From: Verrucomicrobium sp.
GTDB lineage: Bacteria; Verrucomicrobiota; Verrucomicrobiia; Methylacidiphilales; GAS474
DNA: 64,000 nt
Direction of reading: 5' to 3'
Assembly (NCBI GenBank): GCA_028283855.1
Contig: JAPWJX010000003.1
Location: 496,001-560,000 of the forward strand
Part shown: piece after piece, positions 3,867-25,841 of the stretch
Numbering within the stretch: the stretch's first letter is position 1
Layout: every line of letters starts with the position of its first letter
Made by a program: the position numbers and the translations under genes
Notes under the pieces: model-generated
Seen by the model: only the letters and a program-made list of their open reading frames with translations
The model's database searches: none
What the model was told of the DNA's origin: nothing

Positions 3867-6719
3867 TTGTCCACGGAAGAAATCCGCATCGGCGGCGCGC
3901 GCACGCACAACCTCAAGAACCTGACCCTCTCCATCCCGCGGGGGAAGCTGGTCGTCTTCACCGGCGTCTCCGGCTCGGGGAAGTCGTCCCTGGCCTTCGA
4001 CACTCTCTACGCGGAGGGGCAGCGGCGCTACGTGGAGAGCCTCTCCGTCTACGCCCGGCAGTTCCTGGACCAGATGGAGAAGCCGGACTGCGACTACCTG
4101 GAGGGCCTCTCCCCCGCCATCGCCATCGAGCAGCGGACCAGCGCGGGCAACCCCCGCTCCACCGTGGCCACCACCACGGAGGTCTACGATTTCCTGCGCC
4201 TCCTCTTCGCCCACCTGGGCGTGCCCCACCACCCGAAGACGGGCAAGCCGCTCCGCCGCCTCTCCACGCAGCAGATCGTCGACCACGTCCTGGCCTGGCC
4301 GGAGGGGACGCCCGTCCACCTCCTGGCGCCCCTCGTCGCCGGGGAGAAGGGGGAGTTCCGCGACGTCATCGAGCGGATGAAGCGGGAGGGCTTCATCCGC
4401 GCCCGGATCGACGGCGTGGTGACCGAGGTGGAGAACCTGACCGGCCTCGACAAGAAGCAGCCGCACACGATCGAGGCGGTCGTCGACCGGCTGAAAGTCG
4501 CCCCCGACGTCCGTTCCCGGCTGACCGACTCCCTGGAGATCGCCCTGCGCGCGGGGCGCGGCGTGGCCGGGTTCCTCTACCGGGACGCGGCGGGCAAGAG
4601 CCGCGAGTGGCGCGCCAGCACGCAGAACTTCGACCCGGAGACCGGCTTCCACTTCGGCGAGCTGACGCCGCGCCACTTCTCCTTCAACAGCCCGCAGGGC
4701 GCCTGCCCGGCCTGCCACGGCCTGGGGACCGCGCCGGTCTTCGACCCCGCCCTGATCGTGCCGGACGGGGAGAAGGCCCTTTCGGAAATGCCCGTCGCCC
4801 CGTGGCGGCGGAGCAACGCGGGCCTGGCCGCGCTCTACCGGCAGCAGCTGGCCGCCGTCGCCGCCCACTACGGCCAGCCGCTCGAGACGCCGTGGGACAA
4901 GACCTCGGAAGAATTCCGCCAAGTCCTCCTCCACGGCTCCGGCGACGAGCCGATGCCCCTGCCCGGCGGCAAGGGGGCGATGGTCCGCCGCCCCTGGGCG
5001 GGCGTCCTGCCGCAGCTGCGCAACCTCTACGAGGAAAGCCAGAGCGAGCTGACGCGCCAGCGGCTGGCGGGCTTTATGACGGCGGAGCCCTGCCCGGTCT
5101 GCGCCGGGGCGCGGCTCAAGCCGGAGATCCTGGCCGTCACGCTGGGGGAGGACGTCCCGGGCCTCTCCCCGCTGAACATCGACCAGTTCTGCCGCCTCCC
5201 CGTCGCGGCGGCACTCGACTTCGTGGAAAAGCTCGCCCCCTCCCTCGACGAGACGCGGCGGAAGATCGCGGGCGACGTCCTGCGGGAGTTGCGCGGCCGC
5301 CTCGGCTTCCTCGTCCAGACCGGCCTGGGCTACCTCACCCTTTCCCGGGAGAGCGGCACCCTTTCCGGCGGGGAGGCGCAGCGCATCCGGCTGGCCGCCC
5401 AGCTCGGCGCGCGGCTCACCGGCGTCCTCTACATCCTGGACGAGCCTTCCATCGGCCTCCACCAGCGGGACAACGACCGGCTCTTGGAAGTTCTCCGCGC
5501 CCTGCGCGACTTGGGGAACAGCGTCATCGTCGTCGAGCATGACGAGGACACCATCCGCGCCGCCGACTACCTCGTCGACCTGGGGCCCGGCGCGGGCCTG
5601 CGCGGCGGCCACCTCGTCGCCGCCGGGACGCCCGCCCAGGTGGCGGCGGACGAGCGCTCCCTCACCGGCCGCTACCTCTCCGGCCGGGAGAAGATCCCCG
5701 TGCCCCGCGCCCGCACGGAGCCCTCGCGCGGCTGGCTCACCGTCCACGGAGCGCGGGAGAACAACCTGAAGGACGTCGATGCCGCCTTCCCCATCGGCCT
5801 CTTCACCTGCGTCACGGGCGTCTCCGGATCGGGCAAGAGCACGCTGGTGAACGACGTCCTCTGCCGCGCCCTCTTCCGCTATTTCTACAACTCAAAGGAA
5901 AAGCCCGGCGCGCACGGCCGGATCGACGGCCTGCAGCTCGTCGACAAGGCCGTCGTCATCGACCAGTCCCCCATCGGCCGGACGCCGCGCTCCAACCCTT
6001 TGACCTACACGGGCGCCTTCAACGGCATCCGGGACCTCTTCGCCCAGCTCCCCTCCGCCCGCGTGCGCGGCTACGGGCCGGGGCGCTTCTCCTTCAACGT
6101 GAAGGGGGGCCGCTGCGAGCATTGCGAGGGGGCGGGCGTCCTGGCCATCGAGATGAACTTCCTGCCCGCCGTCTACGTGACCTGCGAGGCCTGCCAGGGC
6201 AAGCGCTTCAACCGGGAGACGCTGGAAATCACCTACAAGGGCCGGAACATCTACGACGTGCTGGAACTGACCGTCGACGACGGGCTCTCCTTCTTCCGCA
6301 ACATCCCGGCGGTGAGCGACAAGCTGGAGGCCTTGGCGGCGGTCGGCCTCGGCTACCTGAAGCTGGGCCAGCCCGGCACGACCCTCTCCGGCGGCGAGGC
6401 GCAGCGCGTGAAACTGGCCGCCGAGCTGGCCAAGCGGGCGACGGAGCGGACCGTCTATCTCCTGGACGAGCCGACGACCGGCCTCCACTGGGCCGACATC
6501 GAGCTGCTCCTGCGCGTCCTGCTTAAATTGCGCGACCAGGGCAGCACCCTCATCTGCATCGAGCACAACCTCCACCTCATCAAGTGCGCCGATTACGTCC
6601 TCGACCTCGGGCCGGAGGGCGGGGAGGCCGGGGGAAGGATCGTGGCGCAAGGCACGCCGGAGGAGGTGGCGGCGAGCCCGCAGAGCCTCACGGGGCGGTA
6701 TTTGAAGACGGTGTTGTAG
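3867..6719 (+). CDS. uvrA: excinuclease ABC subunit A
   Basis: This is the DNA damage-recognition ATPase of nucleotide excision repair; it loads UvrB. From the TTG at 3867 it is 950 aa, close to the 940 aa of E. coli UvrA. It carries two ABC modules: Walker [10 protein letters not shown] at 33-41 and GVSGSGKST near 651, with signature LSGGEAQR near 500 and 840. Zinc-binding cysteines appear as CPACHG, CPVCAG and CEHCEG with CEACQG. An ATG at 3783 is in frame but adds 28 residues without family resemblance and sits 9 nt from trpE. The TTG preceding STEEIRIGG fits both the family N-terminus and the predicted promoter. Confidence 0.93.
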
Positions 6720-6760
6720 AACGCGGACCGATTGGCCATCGCGCAAAGGCCGGGCCGACG

Positions 6761-6801
6761 AGGCGGGGAGGTCCAGGAGGGGGCGCCCGCCCCCTCATGC
6801 G
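6761..6801 (-). repeat. palindromic repeat, degenerate copy (left arm)
   Basis: Read on the minus strand, this has the layout CGCA, G-run, short loop, C-run, then TGGA followed by CCCCGC. That is the same order as the copies at 7154-7188 and in the 3' end of znuC, but with several substitutions. Confidence 0.55.
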
Positions 6802-7153
6802 TCTGTAAACACCCCGCTTCCGGTGGGCGGCGCGCTGGCGCTGGTGCGTTAAATGGGAGTCCCTCTGATGGCTACCTGCCCAGGAACGTGACTTATGGCC
6901 GCCCGGTTCCGTTCCGGCTCAGTTGAGTGCGTCGAGGCTTCCCCCGAAGTAGATGTCGTCCTTCCGGCTTCCTCTTCGCCCGGCGGGCCGCTGCCAGGGC
7001 GGACTCATCCCCTGCCGGACCGGCGGGCCCCGACCCGCAGACCGGAGATGGAGCGGGAGGGCCAAGCCGCGCCCCAGGACAGGAAACGACCCAGGGGCCC
7101 AAATTTTACGCGCCAGCGCCAGCGCGCCGCCCACCGAACAAAACGCTTACAGA

Positions 7154-7188
7154 CGCAAGGGGGGCGCAGCCCCCCTTGGATCCCCGCT
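7154..7188 (+). repeat. palindromic repeat, copy in right arm
   Basis: CGCAAGGGGGG, a 4-nt loop and a matching C-run form a strong hairpin, followed by TTGGATCCCCGCT. It matches the copy in the znuC 3' end almost base for base, apart from the loop and one extra base. No T-run follows, so it is a poor candidate for an intrinsic terminator. Confidence 0.7.
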
Positions 7189-7229
7189 CCTTTCGGGGTG
7201 GCGTGGATCCACCCCGGAAGGAAGGTCCC

Positions 7230-7259
7230 TTGCGCGATGGCCAATCGGTCGGCTAGCGT
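7230..7259 (+). promoter_or_regulatory. predicted promoter of the TPR gene
   Basis: TTGCGC (7230-7235), an 18-bp spacer and TAGCGT (7254-7259) end 10 nt before the ATG at 7270. The -35 and most of the spacer lie inside the conserved 21-bp end of the inverted repeat. Confidence 0.5.
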
Positions 7260-7269
7260 GGCGGCTTCC

Positions 7270-9897
7270 ATGCGGCGTTCCGTCACCTTCCTGCTCCTCC
7301 TGGCAGCGCCCCTGCGCGCCGCCGAGGCTCCGCCCGCGCCGCCCGCCGCGGCGAAGGACGCCAAGGAAGCCGCGCGCGCCGCGCGGGAACTGGAACGCCT
7401 CCAGACCTATTTCGACGAAGGCCTCTTCGAGAAAGTCGACGCCGCCGCCAAGGCGCTGGTGAAGATCCCCGCCGCGTCCGCCCAACAAAAGGCGGCGGCC
7501 CGGCTCCTTCAAGGGCAGGCCTTTTATTATTTGGGCCAGTTCGGGCCCGCCCAGGCCGCCTTTGAGGCGGTCCCCGCCGCCGATGCGCCCGAGAGGCAGG
7601 CCGAGGTCCTCTTCTGGCAGGGCGAGGCGCTCACCGGCCAGGAGAATTGGGCCGAGGCGGAGAAACGTTACCGCGCCGCCCTTTCCCAGCCGCCGCCGAA
7701 TCCCTACGAGGCCCGCGCCCAGCTGGGCCTGGGCTGGGCCCTTTTCCACGAGGGGAACGAGCCCGACGCGCGCGCCCTCCTCAACTCCCTCATCGAGGCG
7801 AAGCTCCCCACCGAGGCCGGCGACAAGGCCGCGCTCATCCTGGCCAAGATCGACCTGGCGCGCGGCGAGCCCGACGCGGCGGCCAAGACCCTCGACGGCC
7901 TGGTCCAGCGGAAGGTGACGCCCGGCGTCGCCTTCGAGGCCGCCTACTGGCGCGGGGAGATCGCCCAGCAGCAGGACCGCCCCGCCGACGCGATCGCCGC
8001 CTACCGCAAGGTGACCGACGACGCGAAGGCCTTCCCCGGCCCCCTCGTCGCCAAGGCCTGGTTCGGCCTGGGGAGCGCCTACCTCAAGACGAACGACGGG
8101 GAGAAGGCGATGCAGGCGCTGGAACAGGCCTACACCCGAAGCGCCAGCGAGCAGATGAAGCTGGCCAGCTTCCGCCTCTACCTGCAAAGCGCCGCCGGGC
8201 TCAACCGCCTGCCCGCCGCCCAGGCCCGCCTGCGGGACTACGCCAAGCACGACAACGCCGCCGTCACCGCCGCCGCGGCGCTCCTGGCCATCGCCTCCAG
8301 CCAGGCCGACCACGGCGACACCGACGAGGCGATCGGCACGCTGGAAGCCCTCCTTACCGCCTACCCGCAGACCGACTGGAAGCCCGCCGCCCTCTTCCAG
8401 CTGGGCCAGCTCTACACCGACCAGGGCAAGCCGGACGAGGCCCGCACCGCGCTGCAAAACTGCCTGGAGGCCAACCCGCCTGCCGGGATGGCGCGGGAGG
8501 CCTCCTTCCGCCTGGCGGAGATCGACTTCGCCAAGGGCGCCTACGCGAAGGCGGCGGCCGAGTTCGAGAAGGCCGCGCCCGGCGGCGGCCCGCTGACGGA
8601 GAAGGCCCTCTTCAACCTCCTCCTGGCCCAGGCCGCGCAGGGGGCCATCGACCCCTTCCTCAAGACGGAGGCCGATTTCGCCAAGGCCTTCCCGCAGAGC
8701 CCGCTCCTCCCGCGCATCGCCCTGGAAAAGGCCCGCCTCTACGAGAAGGCGAACCAGCCCGACCAGGCCCGCGCCGCCTACCAGGCCGCCCTCCAGCGCA
8801 ACCCGGACGCCGCGCAGAAGGCGCTCCTCCTCCTCCGCCTGGCCGACCTGGAACGCGGCGCGCAGCACTACGACGACGCCCTGAAATACTACAACGAGGT
8901 GGCGACCGAGTTCCCCGAGGACCCGCGCGTGGCCGAGGCGGCCTACGACTTCGTCTGGGTCAGCTTCCTGGCCGGAAAATACACGAAGGAGCAGGCCCGC
9001 GACGCCCTGACCGGCCTGGCCCAGCGCTTCGAGAAGGGGCCCTTGGGCGCGCGGATCGACTTCAACCTGGGCGAGTTCTGCTTCGAGGCGCAGGACTACG
9101 TCGGCGCGCAGACCTACTTCGAGAAAGTCGCCTCCGGCTTCCCGCAGAGCGACCTGGTCCCCCGCGCCCTCTACTACGCGGGCCAGGCGGCGACGCAGCG
9201 GAAGGACTACGCCGCCGCGCTGAAGATCCTGGAAAAGGTCCCCGCCGACGCCCCGGGCGGCCTGAAGACCGACGCGCGGCTCCTCCAGGGCCTCATCTAC
9301 CACCTGCAGGGCCGCTTCGCCGACGCCGTCGCCCTTTTCGACTCCGTTCTGGCGGGGGAAAAGAGCGGCCCGCGCTTCGTCGCCGCCACGCTGCGGAAGG
9401 GCAACGCCCTCTTTGCCCAGGGCGGCGCCGATCCGACCCGCTACGAGCTGGCCGCGAACACCTACGGCACCCTCCTTTCCACCGGCCAGGGCAGCTTCGC
9501 CGAGCGGAACGAGGCCGCCTACATGCGCGCCAAATGCTTCGAGAAGCTGGGCCGCGCCGCCGACGCGCTGGCCCTTTACCTCGACGTCCTCAACGGGCGC
9601 GAGGCCCCCGCCCCCTTCGACGAGAAAAACCCGCCGCCGCCGGAGATGCTCTGGCGGGTGAAGGCGGGCCTCGACGCGGCGGCGCTGCGGCAGGCCACCC
9701 AGGACTGGGCGGGCGCGGCGGAAGTCTACCGGCGGCTGGAGGCCCTGGGCGGCCCGAACGCGAACGATTTCCGCGACGCGCTCAACCGCCTGCGCCGCGA
9801 CCACTTCCTCTTCGACGAGGAAACCGGCGCCCCCGCCGCGGCGGCCGTTCCTCAGCCCGCGCCTGCGCCCGCGACGAACGTCCCGGCGAAGCCTTAA
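7270..9897 (+). CDS. secreted tetratricopeptide-repeat protein
   Basis: An 875-aa protein starting MRRSVTFLLLLAAPLRAAEA, a clear signal peptide, so it probably acts in the periplasm or outer envelope. The mature part is nearly all helical TPR-type repeats, many with the A-x-F/Y pattern (for example EVLFWQGEALTGQENWAEAE and ALFQLGQLYTDQGKPDEA). It ends in a Pro/Ala-rich tail. Such scaffolds bind partner proteins; the partner is unknown. The ATG at 7270 is preferred over 7237, which would put extra residues before the signal peptide. Its stop overlaps that of the convergent gene by two bases. Confidence 0.85.
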   Translation: MRRSVTFLLLLAAPLRAAEAPPAPPAAAKDAKEAARAARELERLQTYFDEGLFEKVDAAAKALVKIPAASAQQKAAARLLQGQAFYYLGQFGPAQAAFEAVPAADAPERQAEVLFWQGEALTGQENWAEAEKRYRAALSQPPPNPYEARAQLGLGWALFHEGNEPDARALLNSLIEAKLPTEAGDKAALILAKIDLARGEPDAAAKTLDGLVQRKVTPGVAFEAAYWRGEIAQQQDRPADAIAAYRKVTDDAKAFPGPLVAKAWFGLGSAYLKTNDGEKAMQALEQAYTRSASEQMKLASFRLYLQSAAGLNRLPAAQARLRDYAKHDNAAVTAAAALLAIASSQADHGDTDEAIGTLEALLTAYPQTDWKPAALFQLGQLYTDQGKPDEARTALQNCLEANPPAGMAREASFRLAEIDFAKGAYAKAAAEFEKAAPGGGPLTEKALFNLLLAQAAQGAIDPFLKTEADFAKAFPQSPLLPRIALEKARLYEKANQPDQARAAYQAALQRNPDAAQKALLLLRLADLERGAQHYDDALKYYNEVATEFPEDPRVAEAAYDFVWVSFLAGKYTKEQARDALTGLAQRFEKGPLGARIDFNLGEFCFEAQDYVGAQTYFEKVASGFPQSDLVPRALYYAGQAATQRKDYAAALKILEKVPADAPGGLKTDARLLQGLIYHLQGRFADAVALFDSVLAGEKSGPRFVAATLRKGNALFAQGGADPTRYELAANTYGTLLSTGQGSFAERNEAAYMRAKCFEKLGRAADALALYLDVLNGREAPAPFDEKNPPPPEMLWRVKAGLDAAALRQATQDWAGAAEVYRRLEALGGPNANDFRDALNRLRRDHFLFDEETGAPAAAAVPQPAPAPATNVPAKP

Positions 9898-23123: not shown

Positions 23124-25841
23124 TTACTGCTCTTCTTCGGCGGGCGGCTCTTCCGCCGCGGCCTCTTCCTCGGCGGGCGCCTCGGCGTCCTCGGCCGGTT
23201 CCCCGCCCTCGGTCCCGTATTCGGACTGGGCGTCCTCGGCGTCTTCCGCGCCGAAGTTGCTGTCCTGGTAGCTCTCCTCCTCTTCTTCCTTGGTCAGGCC
23301 GCCGCCGCCCAATTCCGCCTGGCTGCGGAGGCGGAGGGGCAGCTCCCCGTATTGCTTGAGGTTGAGGACTTCCTTGAGGTCGTCGACGAGCTTGCCGACG
23401 TTGGAGAGGCGGCTTTTGAGCGCGCGGTTCTGGGAAAGGAGCTCGCGGTGGGTCTCGGCGGCGGCGTGGCTTACCTCGGCCAGCTCGCCTTGGAGCTTGG
23501 AGACCTTGGCGCGGAGGTGCTCGGCGTCTTCCGTCACGGAGGCCAGGCGGCCGCGGAGGGCTTTGGCCTCGCGCAGCCACTGCTTTTGCTCGTCGGCGGC
23601 GGTTTGCTCCGCCTCGCGCAGGCGTTCGCCCGCCTCGCGGACTTGGGTGCGCATGCGGGCGGCCTCGGAGACGGTGTCGCTCAGGCTCACCTTGAGCTGG
23701 CGCAGTTCTTCCTCCATCTCCGCCTGGCGGCGGGAAAGGGCGTGGGCTTCCTTTTGGGCCTTCTCGGCCTCGGCCTCGTGGCGCTCCACCTCCGCCTGCA
23801 GCTCGTGGCGGCGGCGGGAGGCCTCGGCCTCTTGGGCGGAGACTTGCTCGCGGACCTTCTGCAGCTCGGTTTCCAGGCGGGCTTTCTCGGCGTGGGCGGC
23901 CCCGGTGGCCTCGGCCACGGCGTCGCGCAGCTCGGCGACTTTCGTGCGGAGCCCGGAGGCTTCCGCCTCCGCCTCGCTCTGGCGGGCGGCGTGGCGGCGT
24001 TCTTCCTCGGCCAAAATGGTCTTTTCCTTGAGGGCGCCGTCCCGCGCGGCCTCGGCGGCGATGAGCCGCTCGCGAAGGGCGGTCAGTTCCGCCTCGCCCC
24101 GGGTGCGGAGCTGGTCGCGCTCGGCGGTGAGGGTGGCCAGCTGGGCGCGCAGGGCGTCCCGCTCCGCGACGGCGGTGGCAGACTGGACGCGCGCGGTTTC
24201 CCGTTCCGTCTCCAGCGCGGTGATCTGGGCGCGGGTTTTCTCGAAATTGGACTGAAGGGTGGCTCCCTGCGCCTCTTCGGCGGCCAGGCGGCTGGCCAGC
24301 ATGTCGCGCTCGCGGGCGATGACGGCGCGCTCGCTGTCGCCGCCGGTGGCCTGGGTGCGGAGGCGGTGGACCTCGCCTTCCAGATCGGCGAGGCGCTTTT
24401 GCGCGGCCTCCGCCTGGAGGCGCAGCTGGTCGCGCTCGGCGGCGGCGGTGCCTCCGGCGGCGGCCTGGAGCTTGAGCTGGTCCCGCTCGGCCGCCAGCTG
24501 GGCGGCCTGGGAGCGCAGGGTTTCGCGCTCGGATTCCAGAAGGGCCAGCTGGGTCCGGGTTTTCTCGAAATCTTGTTGGAGGGTGGCCCCCTCGTTCTCT
24601 TCCGCCTTCAGGCGGCTTTCGAGCATCTCGCGCTCCTTGGTCAGGGCGGCGCGCTCGGCTTCGACGTTGTTGGCCTGGGCCCGGAGGCTGGCCAACTCCC
24701 CTTCGGCCTGGGCCAGGCGCTCGGCGCGCTCGGCGGACTCGGCCTGGAAGCGGTTGCGTTCGGCGGAGGCGGTGGCGGCCTCCGCATGGAGCTTTTCCAG
24801 GTCGCCGTGGAGGCTGGACCCCTCGCTCTCCTGGGCGGAGAGGCGGTTGGCGAGCATCTCGCGCTCCTTGGCCAGGGCGGCCCGGTCGGCGGCGAGCTGG
24901 GCGGCCTGGGCGCGGAGGTTTTCCAGCTCCTTGTCGGCCTGGCTGAGGCGGGCGCGGGCCTCCTCCGTCTGGCCGCGCAGCTGGTCGCGGTCGGAGGTGG
25001 CGGCGGCGACTTCCTCCCGCAGCTTCTCCAGGTCGGCCTGGAGGGCGGCGGTCTCCTCCTCCGAAGCGAGGCGGGCGGAAAGGGAATTCTTCTCCCGGGC
25101 CAGGGAGGCGCGCTCGGCCTCGACGGCTTCCGCCTGGATGCGGAGGCGCGTCAGCTCCTCCTCCATCTCGGCGACGCGGCGCTTGAAGTGCTCGACCTCC
25201 TGCCGCTGGGCTTCGATGTCGGGATGGTTTTCAGCCTGGGCCGGCGCCTGGGCCTGCGGCGCGGGGGCTTCCTCGGAAATCGCCTCGGGCTCGAGGGCGG
25301 GCTCCGGTTCCGGCTGGGGCTCCGGTTCGAAGACGGCGGCGGGTTCCGGGGCCGGTTCCGGCTCGGGAGCGGTAGCCGGTTCGAGGGCGGGCTCGGGCTC
25401 CGGCGTGGCGGCGGCCTTCGGCTCGACCGGGCGGGAAAACATGCCCTGCGGGCGGGCTTTGAGCTTCGGCGCGCCGGCGGGGCTGCCTTTGCCGGCGGGG
25501 GGCTTGGAAAGGGAGATGACGGGATTGTTGGCGGCGGGGGCGCTCTTTTGGGGGGCGGCCTCGGCCTTCTTCGGCTCAGGGGCAAGCTCGGGCTCGGGTT
25601 CCGGCTCGGGCGCGGCGGCGGTCGGCTCGGGCTCGGGCGCCGCTTCCGCTTCCGGCGCGGGGGTGGCGACGGGGGCGGGCTTGGCGGGGGGCAGCAGCAG
25701 GCGCAGGGGGGCCCACTCCTTCAACCCCTCATGCCAGGCCAGATCGCCGGGCAGAACCTCTCCGGCCGCCAGCTTTTTACGGACCTCTTCCTCCGGGAAT
25801 GGTCCTGTGGGCTGACCGTTTTTGGCAACGTAAAGGTTCAT
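23124..25841 (-). CDS. GYF_2-domain long coiled-coil protein with internal repeats
   Basis: A 905-aa protein in three parts. Residues 1-50 are a GYF_2-type domain (YVAKNGQPTGPFPEEEV, DLAWHEGLKEWAPL), known from bacterial proteins as a small partner-binding module. Residues 50-210 are a Pro/Glu/Ala-rich linker. Residues 210-830 form a continuous heptad-rich coiled coil. The coiled coil contains about four diverged repeats built round LR-QA, AER--L-KEREML-SRL and ATLQ--FEKTR. The last 75 residues are strongly acidic. There is no signal peptide. It would be an elongated cytoplasmic scaffold; partners are unknown. Confidence 0.85.
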   Translation of the reverse strand: MNLYVAKNGQPTGPFPEEEVRKKLAAGEVLPGDLAWHEGLKEWAPLRLLLPPAKPAPVATPAPEAEAAPEPEPTAAAPEPEPEPELAPEPKKAEAAPQKSAPAANNPVISLSKPPAGKGSPAGAPKLKARPQGMFSRPVEPKAAATPEPEPALEPATAPEPEPAPEPAAVFEPEPQPEPEPALEPEAISEEAPAPQAQAPAQAENHPDIEAQRQEVEHFKRRVAEMEEELTRLRIQAEAVEAERASLAREKNSLSARLASEEETAALQADLEKLREEVAAATSDRDQLRGQTEEARARLSQADKELENLRAQAAQLAADRAALAKEREMLANRLSAQESEGSSLHGDLEKLHAEAATASAERNRFQAESAERAERLAQAEGELASLRAQANNVEAERAALTKEREMLESRLKAEENEGATLQQDFEKTRTQLALLESERETLRSQAAQLAAERDQLKLQAAAGGTAAAERDQLRLQAEAAQKRLADLEGEVHRLRTQATGGDSERAVIARERDMLASRLAAEEAQGATLQSNFEKTRAQITALETERETARVQSATAVAERDALRAQLATLTAERDQLRTRGEAELTALRERLIAAEAARDGALKEKTILAEEERRHAARQSEAEAEASGLRTKVAELRDAVAEATGAAHAEKARLETELQKVREQVSAQEAEASRRRHELQAEVERHEAEAEKAQKEAHALSRRQAEMEEELRQLKVSLSDTVSEAARMRTQVREAGERLREAEQTAADEQKQWLREAKALRGRLASVTEDAEHLRAKVSKLQGELAEVSHAAAETHRELLSQNRALKSRLSNVGKLVDDLKEVLNLKQYGELPLRLRSQAELGGGGLTKEEEEESYQDSNFGAEDAEDAQSEYGTEGGEPAEDAEAPAEEEAAAEEPPAEEEQ

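Follow-up and report, generated by a model that had tools for sequence, protein, structure and literature searches.

In the window, by which we mean the whole 64,000-nucleotide stretch analysed here, uvrA ends with a stop codon at 6717-6719 and a gene for a TPR-repeat protein starts at 7270. An imperfect palindrome of 531 bp (6723-7253) nearly fills the gap between them. The initial annotation had placed an inverted repeat of 525 bp at 6726-7250, built of two facing copies. Both the span and the arrangement are real, and the outer terminal match reaches somewhat further, to 6723-7253 (27 nt, 93%). Perfect blocks occur in equal order in the two arms: GACCGATTGGCCATCGCGCAA (21 bp, 6726-6746 and 7230-7250), TGCGTCTGTAA (11 bp) and CGGTGGGCGGCGCGCTGGCGCTGG (24 bp). 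Local alignment of one arm with the other scores 160, against a mean of 44.8 (sd 7.4, maximum 69) for 200 dinucleotide shuffles. The 531 nt are predicted to fold, on either strand, into a single end-to-end hairpin, with predicted folding z-scores of -10.7 (RNA, plus strand), -12.1 (RNA, minus strand) and -9.7 (DNA). Arm score and folding together confirm the palindrome, far beyond chance. The parts of the window copy, including a hairpin of ~30 nt inside each arm, are these:

6723-7253, no strand: whole element, an imperfect palindrome with five further copies in the genome
6723-6749, plus strand: left terminal inverted repeat, 27 nt, 93% complementary to 7227-7253; the left end is kept in 6/6 copies
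6772-6803, plus strand: left-arm hairpin, TCCAGGAGGGGGCGCCCGCCCCCTCATGCGTC
6821-6864, plus strand: inner left arm, 44 nt, 86% complementary to 7093-7136
6890-6934, plus strand: core block 1 (ACTTATGGCCGCC...TTCCGTTCCGGCTCAGTTGAGTGCGTCG), best from ~6901, with a mean column identity of 0.92
6974-7048, plus strand: core block 2, the hairpin head, mean column identity ~0.92; partly deleted in copy 4
7093-7136, minus strand: inner right arm, partner of 6821-6864
7152-7180, minus strand: right-arm hairpin, TCCAAGGGGGGCTGCGCCCCCCTTGCGTC, more conserved (0.94) than any other stretch of the family
7227-7253, minus strand: right terminal inverted repeat, recognisable in full only in the window copy; copy 2 has a shortened version, and the remaining copies a decayed one or none

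The element was described at the outset as lacking a credible open reading frame, and it does. Frames that cross it either extend the TPR frame upstream or are the generic open frames of high-GC DNA; the copies are distinguished by single-base indels, and the dispersed copies have no coding capacity. No consensus site for a sigma-70-type promoter or an intrinsic terminator was found within 6650-7330.

The genome in which we searched for further copies comprises 2.56 Mb in 9 contigs and is 95.6% complete. It holds five near-full copies, the window's included, and one truncated copy (E values 1e-285 to 1e-17). Since other copies exist, the initial annotation, which had proposed looking for them, is not overturned. 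The other near-full copies lie at positions 695467, 612294, 634328 and 399064 of contig C3, and the truncated copy (copy 6) occupies 464811-465042 of the same contig. Scanning 460 kb of the contig with a profile built from the five full copies recovered the same six and no seventh. Apart from the truncated one the copies measure ~500-530 bp, and they are 75-86% identical in pairwise comparison. Their flanks are unrelated, and similarity starts at one common left terminus, (C)CGGAC.GA.TGG.CATCGCGC. In copies 1 (the window copy) and 2 the two ends carry inverted repeats that match, CGGACCGATTGGCC...GGCCAATCGGTC. At the right end the terminal repeat survives entire in the window copy and at reduced length in copy 2; it has decayed in copies 3-5 and is gone from copy 6. 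No other site in the 95.6%-complete genome carries the termini of the element (CGGACCGATTGGCCATCGCGC), and no plasmid-borne relatives were found. A candidate relative on a viral contig was rejected as chance: one 19-nt match to the core had no similarity around it, and the terminus had no match.

All six copies are intergenic. With neighbouring genes called by codon usage and Pfam, the contexts are uvrA/TPR (the window copy); after lgt; glycosyltransferase/class-V aminotransferase; S49 peptidase/DUF309; GATase/glgC-type, which are divergent; and dnaA/dnaN. Copies 1, 2 and 3 begin no more than ~5 nt after a stop codon; truncated copy 6, in the dnaA-dnaN gap, lies close behind the dnaA stop. Copy 4 lies upstream of the peptidase gene, and copy 5 between divergent genes.

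Among the five full copies conservation is strongly block-wise: the variance of windowed conservation is 0.0176, against 0.0045 when permuted, and 0 of 2000 permutations are as high (P<1/2000). The right hairpin scores highest (0.94), followed by the two core stretches (0.92) and the terminus (0.89), with other parts at 0.58-0.70; the centre, 6890-7048, thus ranks among the best conserved parts. This pattern, with the old divergence of the copies, bears out the suggestion of selection on parts of the element and not of a fresh duplication. It could also be read as the mark of a structured regulatory or 3'-UTR RNA family under selection, which would be co-transcribed with the upstream gene and whose hairpin and core would stabilise the mRNA or bound transcription. 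The ~80-nt core at 0.92 identity suits such an RNA, as does the conservation of paired columns (0.84, vs 0.72 for unpaired columns), and so do the starts of copies 1-3 and 6 behind stop codons, a position that many elements of the related genome GAS474 share. Starts behind stop codons prove little where gaps are short, however, because short gaps by themselves place any insertion near a stop codon, and copies 4 and 5 lie elsewhere. Nor do compensatory changes exceed expectation, in a comparison of five copies that has little power: 11 double-change pairs stand against 8.3±2.2 in shuffles, 74/500 of which are as high, and 89.8% of cells are paired, against 89.0% in shuffles. Neither the element nor its relatives match any family in Rfam 15 at the gathering score. 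Matches at relaxed thresholds (RsmW, GRIK4 3'UTR, sR34 and sX7) are at chance level, come from unrelated taxa and were discarded. Given, further, that the uvrA copy is missing from GAS474, we regard a dedicated RNA as unlikely. Of the two possibilities offered at the start, a structured RNA or a MITE, the first finds no support in Rfam or in covariation, the five-copy test speaking neither for nor against a selected RNA structure.

The genome of Verrucomicrobium sp. GAS474 (G002) has 3,763,444 bp (PMC5786674). There uvrA is followed after 11 nt by the orthologous TPR gene, without the element. Gene order is conserved, the UvrA proteins are 75% identical, and the match between the TPR proteins is 50.6% identical. 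The 11-nt gap makes insertion the simplest reading, so that the window element was probably inserted in its own lineage, with loss in GAS474 as the alternative. The comparison concerns one locus, at which intergenic DNA is too diverged for the exact empty target to be read. In a second relative (G001) a different repeat family, its own, starts right behind the uvrA stop, where the contig breaks off. The three uvrA ends thus carry a palindrome here, another repeat family in G001 and an 11-nt gap in GAS474.

We consider the palindromes likely to be old mobile elements, non-coding and non-autonomous, that form a small family and resemble MITEs or palindromic intergenic repeats of the ERIC/Correia type. 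The copies, their common ends, their divergence and the element-free orthologous gap are direct observations in favour of this reading, and it is the MITE half of the initial proposal that they uphold. A transposase supplied in trans, probably by an element since lost, would once have acted on the terminal repeats and inserted the copies, which would have been decaying ever since, chiefly by loss of the right end. Block-wise conservation is what a MITE-like element is expected to show at its ends and recognition sites. Where transcription runs through the element, as after uvrA, it would yield one very long RNA hairpin. This could at most affect the processing of the mRNA 3' end, stability or read-through, and would do so incidentally, not as a dedicated function; the element would be no more than a 3'-UTR hairpin of neighbouring mRNAs, that of uvrA included.

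Four kinds of transposase protein, Y1 (PF01797), DDE_Tnp_1, rve and Transposase_mut, are absent from the 95.6%-complete genome, as are insertion sequences with the termini of the element. The enzyme is therefore gone, lies in the missing 4%, or belongs to another family. By eye, no target-site duplication is readable at copies 1 and 2; the copies are old, and the other right ends are decayed. These negatives count against the MITE-like reading, as do the GC-richness of the element and two further observations. The central core is as well conserved as the ends, which the interior of a passive MITE need not be, and the reading does not account for the clustering of the copies around dnaA.

The six copies span 297 kb around dnaA-dnaN. 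From their coordinates, the chance that random placement would confine them to such an arc of the circle is ~ 6 x 0.116^5 = 1.3e-4. Near dnaA-dnaN the GC skew shifts from about -0.01 before to +0.04 after, which is consistent with a replication origin in this region. One might therefore propose an origin-linked structural element, a nucleoid- or replication-related site that selection has positioned around oriC. The confinement of the copies, the one in the dnaA-dnaN gap and the change of skew sign roughly there would all agree with this. But there are just six copies, without consistent orientation to the origin and at irregular flanking distances, and truncation is most severe in the copy between dnaA and dnaN, near which there are no DnaA boxes. 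We find such a role highly improbable.

The arm hairpin provides the one connection to repeats elsewhere. Its motif, TCCARGNGGGG..CCCC..TGCGTC, has 11 matches in this genome, which are exactly the arms of the copies; outside the six copies there are no strict matches, just a few degenerate sequences that resemble the hairpin. In a phylum sample of 288 genomes it has 19 matches in GAS474 and 0 in the other 286. A GTDB-wide scan gave 16 single matches in unrelated phyla, which we dismissed as chance. In GAS474 the hairpin forms the centre of a different, conserved intergenic element of ~240-300 bp. A module of this element, TCCASCTGTACAGGG, searched for with up to 1 mismatch, has 176 matches in the closed 3.76-Mb GAS474 genome, where the reversed control gave 0. 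It has 47 in G001 and none here, and 57 further genomes from the order have 0-2 each. The GAS474 repeats, which have no match in Rfam, often have their right end directly against a neighbouring gene's stop codon. To judge by sequence, the GAS474 family and the window palindrome are linked by the ~30-nt hairpin only. Both are intergenic and share GGGAGGTCCAGGAGGGG..CCCCTC.TGCGTC, whereas the GAS474 element has a single hairpin, no long palindrome and an otherwise unrelated sequence. Many of the GAS474 and G001 repeats also contain, inside or beside the hairpin, a cassette of 62-63 nt (ACTGCCGTCGCGGTAGCGAC...GGGAAACTAACTTGCAGGGCCGGGAGGCAAG and its relatives). It occurs at several insertion positions, and in opposite orientation in one repeat, and has the look of one mini-element nested in another.

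A broader reading would unite these repeats in a genus-wide superfamily, modular in build and centred on hairpins, whose intergenic members insert at gene 3' ends, repeatedly at the same gene, by an unrecognised mobility mechanism. This is a speculative possibility to which we give some weight, though we doubt it. It would cover, with the same reserve, the six origin palindromes here, the ~176 motif copies with nested cassettes in GAS474, the dozens in a third species, and uvrA, targeted twice by different families.

The hairpin also invites comparison with REP sequences. CGTC-REPs are defined by a 5' CGTC tag, a stem of 8-9 bp that begins with AT, and a 3' CCA tail (Di Nocera et al. 2013, PMC3733652), and that survey reported none from Verrucomicrobia. 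Like them, the hairpin here is flanked by CGTC and CCA, one on either side, and occurs in inverted pairs. The element could thus be a REP-like composite, that is, two TCCA-stem-TGCGTC hairpins in opposite orientation, forming a dimer of the REPIN or BIME kind, which captured its flanks and was moved by a REP-type system. The hairpin is indeed the sole part common with the GAS474 family, where it is single, and in some species inverted REP dimers lie inside longer palindromes (PMC3733652). The polarity, however, is reversed (5' TCCA-stem-TGCGTC 3', against 5' CGTC-stem-CCA 3'), and the hairpin accounts for only part of an element that is much longer. The tags sit on opposite sides of the stem, so this is not a CGTC-REP, and the genome encodes no Y1 transposase (RAYT), so it is not a REPIN. 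With strict hairpin matches confined to the six copies as well, we judge a REP origin very unlikely.

Taking the palindromes, then, as MITE-like, the 525-bp gap is accounted for as a mobile-type repeat and not as a lone RNA gene. Relatives in the Methylacidiphilales gain a described repeat family. The abundant, uncatalogued intergenic repeats of GAS474, which is in culture, make insertion-site preference and effects on 3' UTRs testable there. By itself the finding overturns nothing. Elsewhere in the window, 24091-25159 consists of long, diverged direct repeats with a period of 231 bp (TRF), probably a coding region for a repetitive coiled coil.

The element can finally be set beside known repeats, features of prokaryotic MITEs being taken from PMC10969869 and PMC2229807. 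MITEs are typically AT-rich (PMC10969869), and the window element differs in being GC-rich. The features it does have are dispersed non-coding copies, terminal repeats (27 nt, 93%, where about 4-30 bp is the criterion) and, at one locus, an element-free orthologous site. Two others, a target duplication at copies 1 and 2 and a cognate insertion sequence in the 95.6%-complete genome, were not found, so 'MITE-like' is a working assignment and not proof of membership. Like ERIC or IRU sequences, it is imperfectly palindromic from end to end and lies between genes, near gene ends, but it is four times longer, unrelated in sequence and present in six copies only. Type II MITEs (e.g. Correia/NEMIS, Chunjie and QMITE) differ in that 531 bp lies near the top of their size range and that here no target duplication is readable and no cognate insertion sequence was found. 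They are alike in being non-coding, multi-copy and intergenic, in having terminal inverted repeats and truncated copies, and in a transcript that folds, here by prediction, into a long stem-loop. The palindrome after uvrA represents a new small family, and a familiar kind of element.
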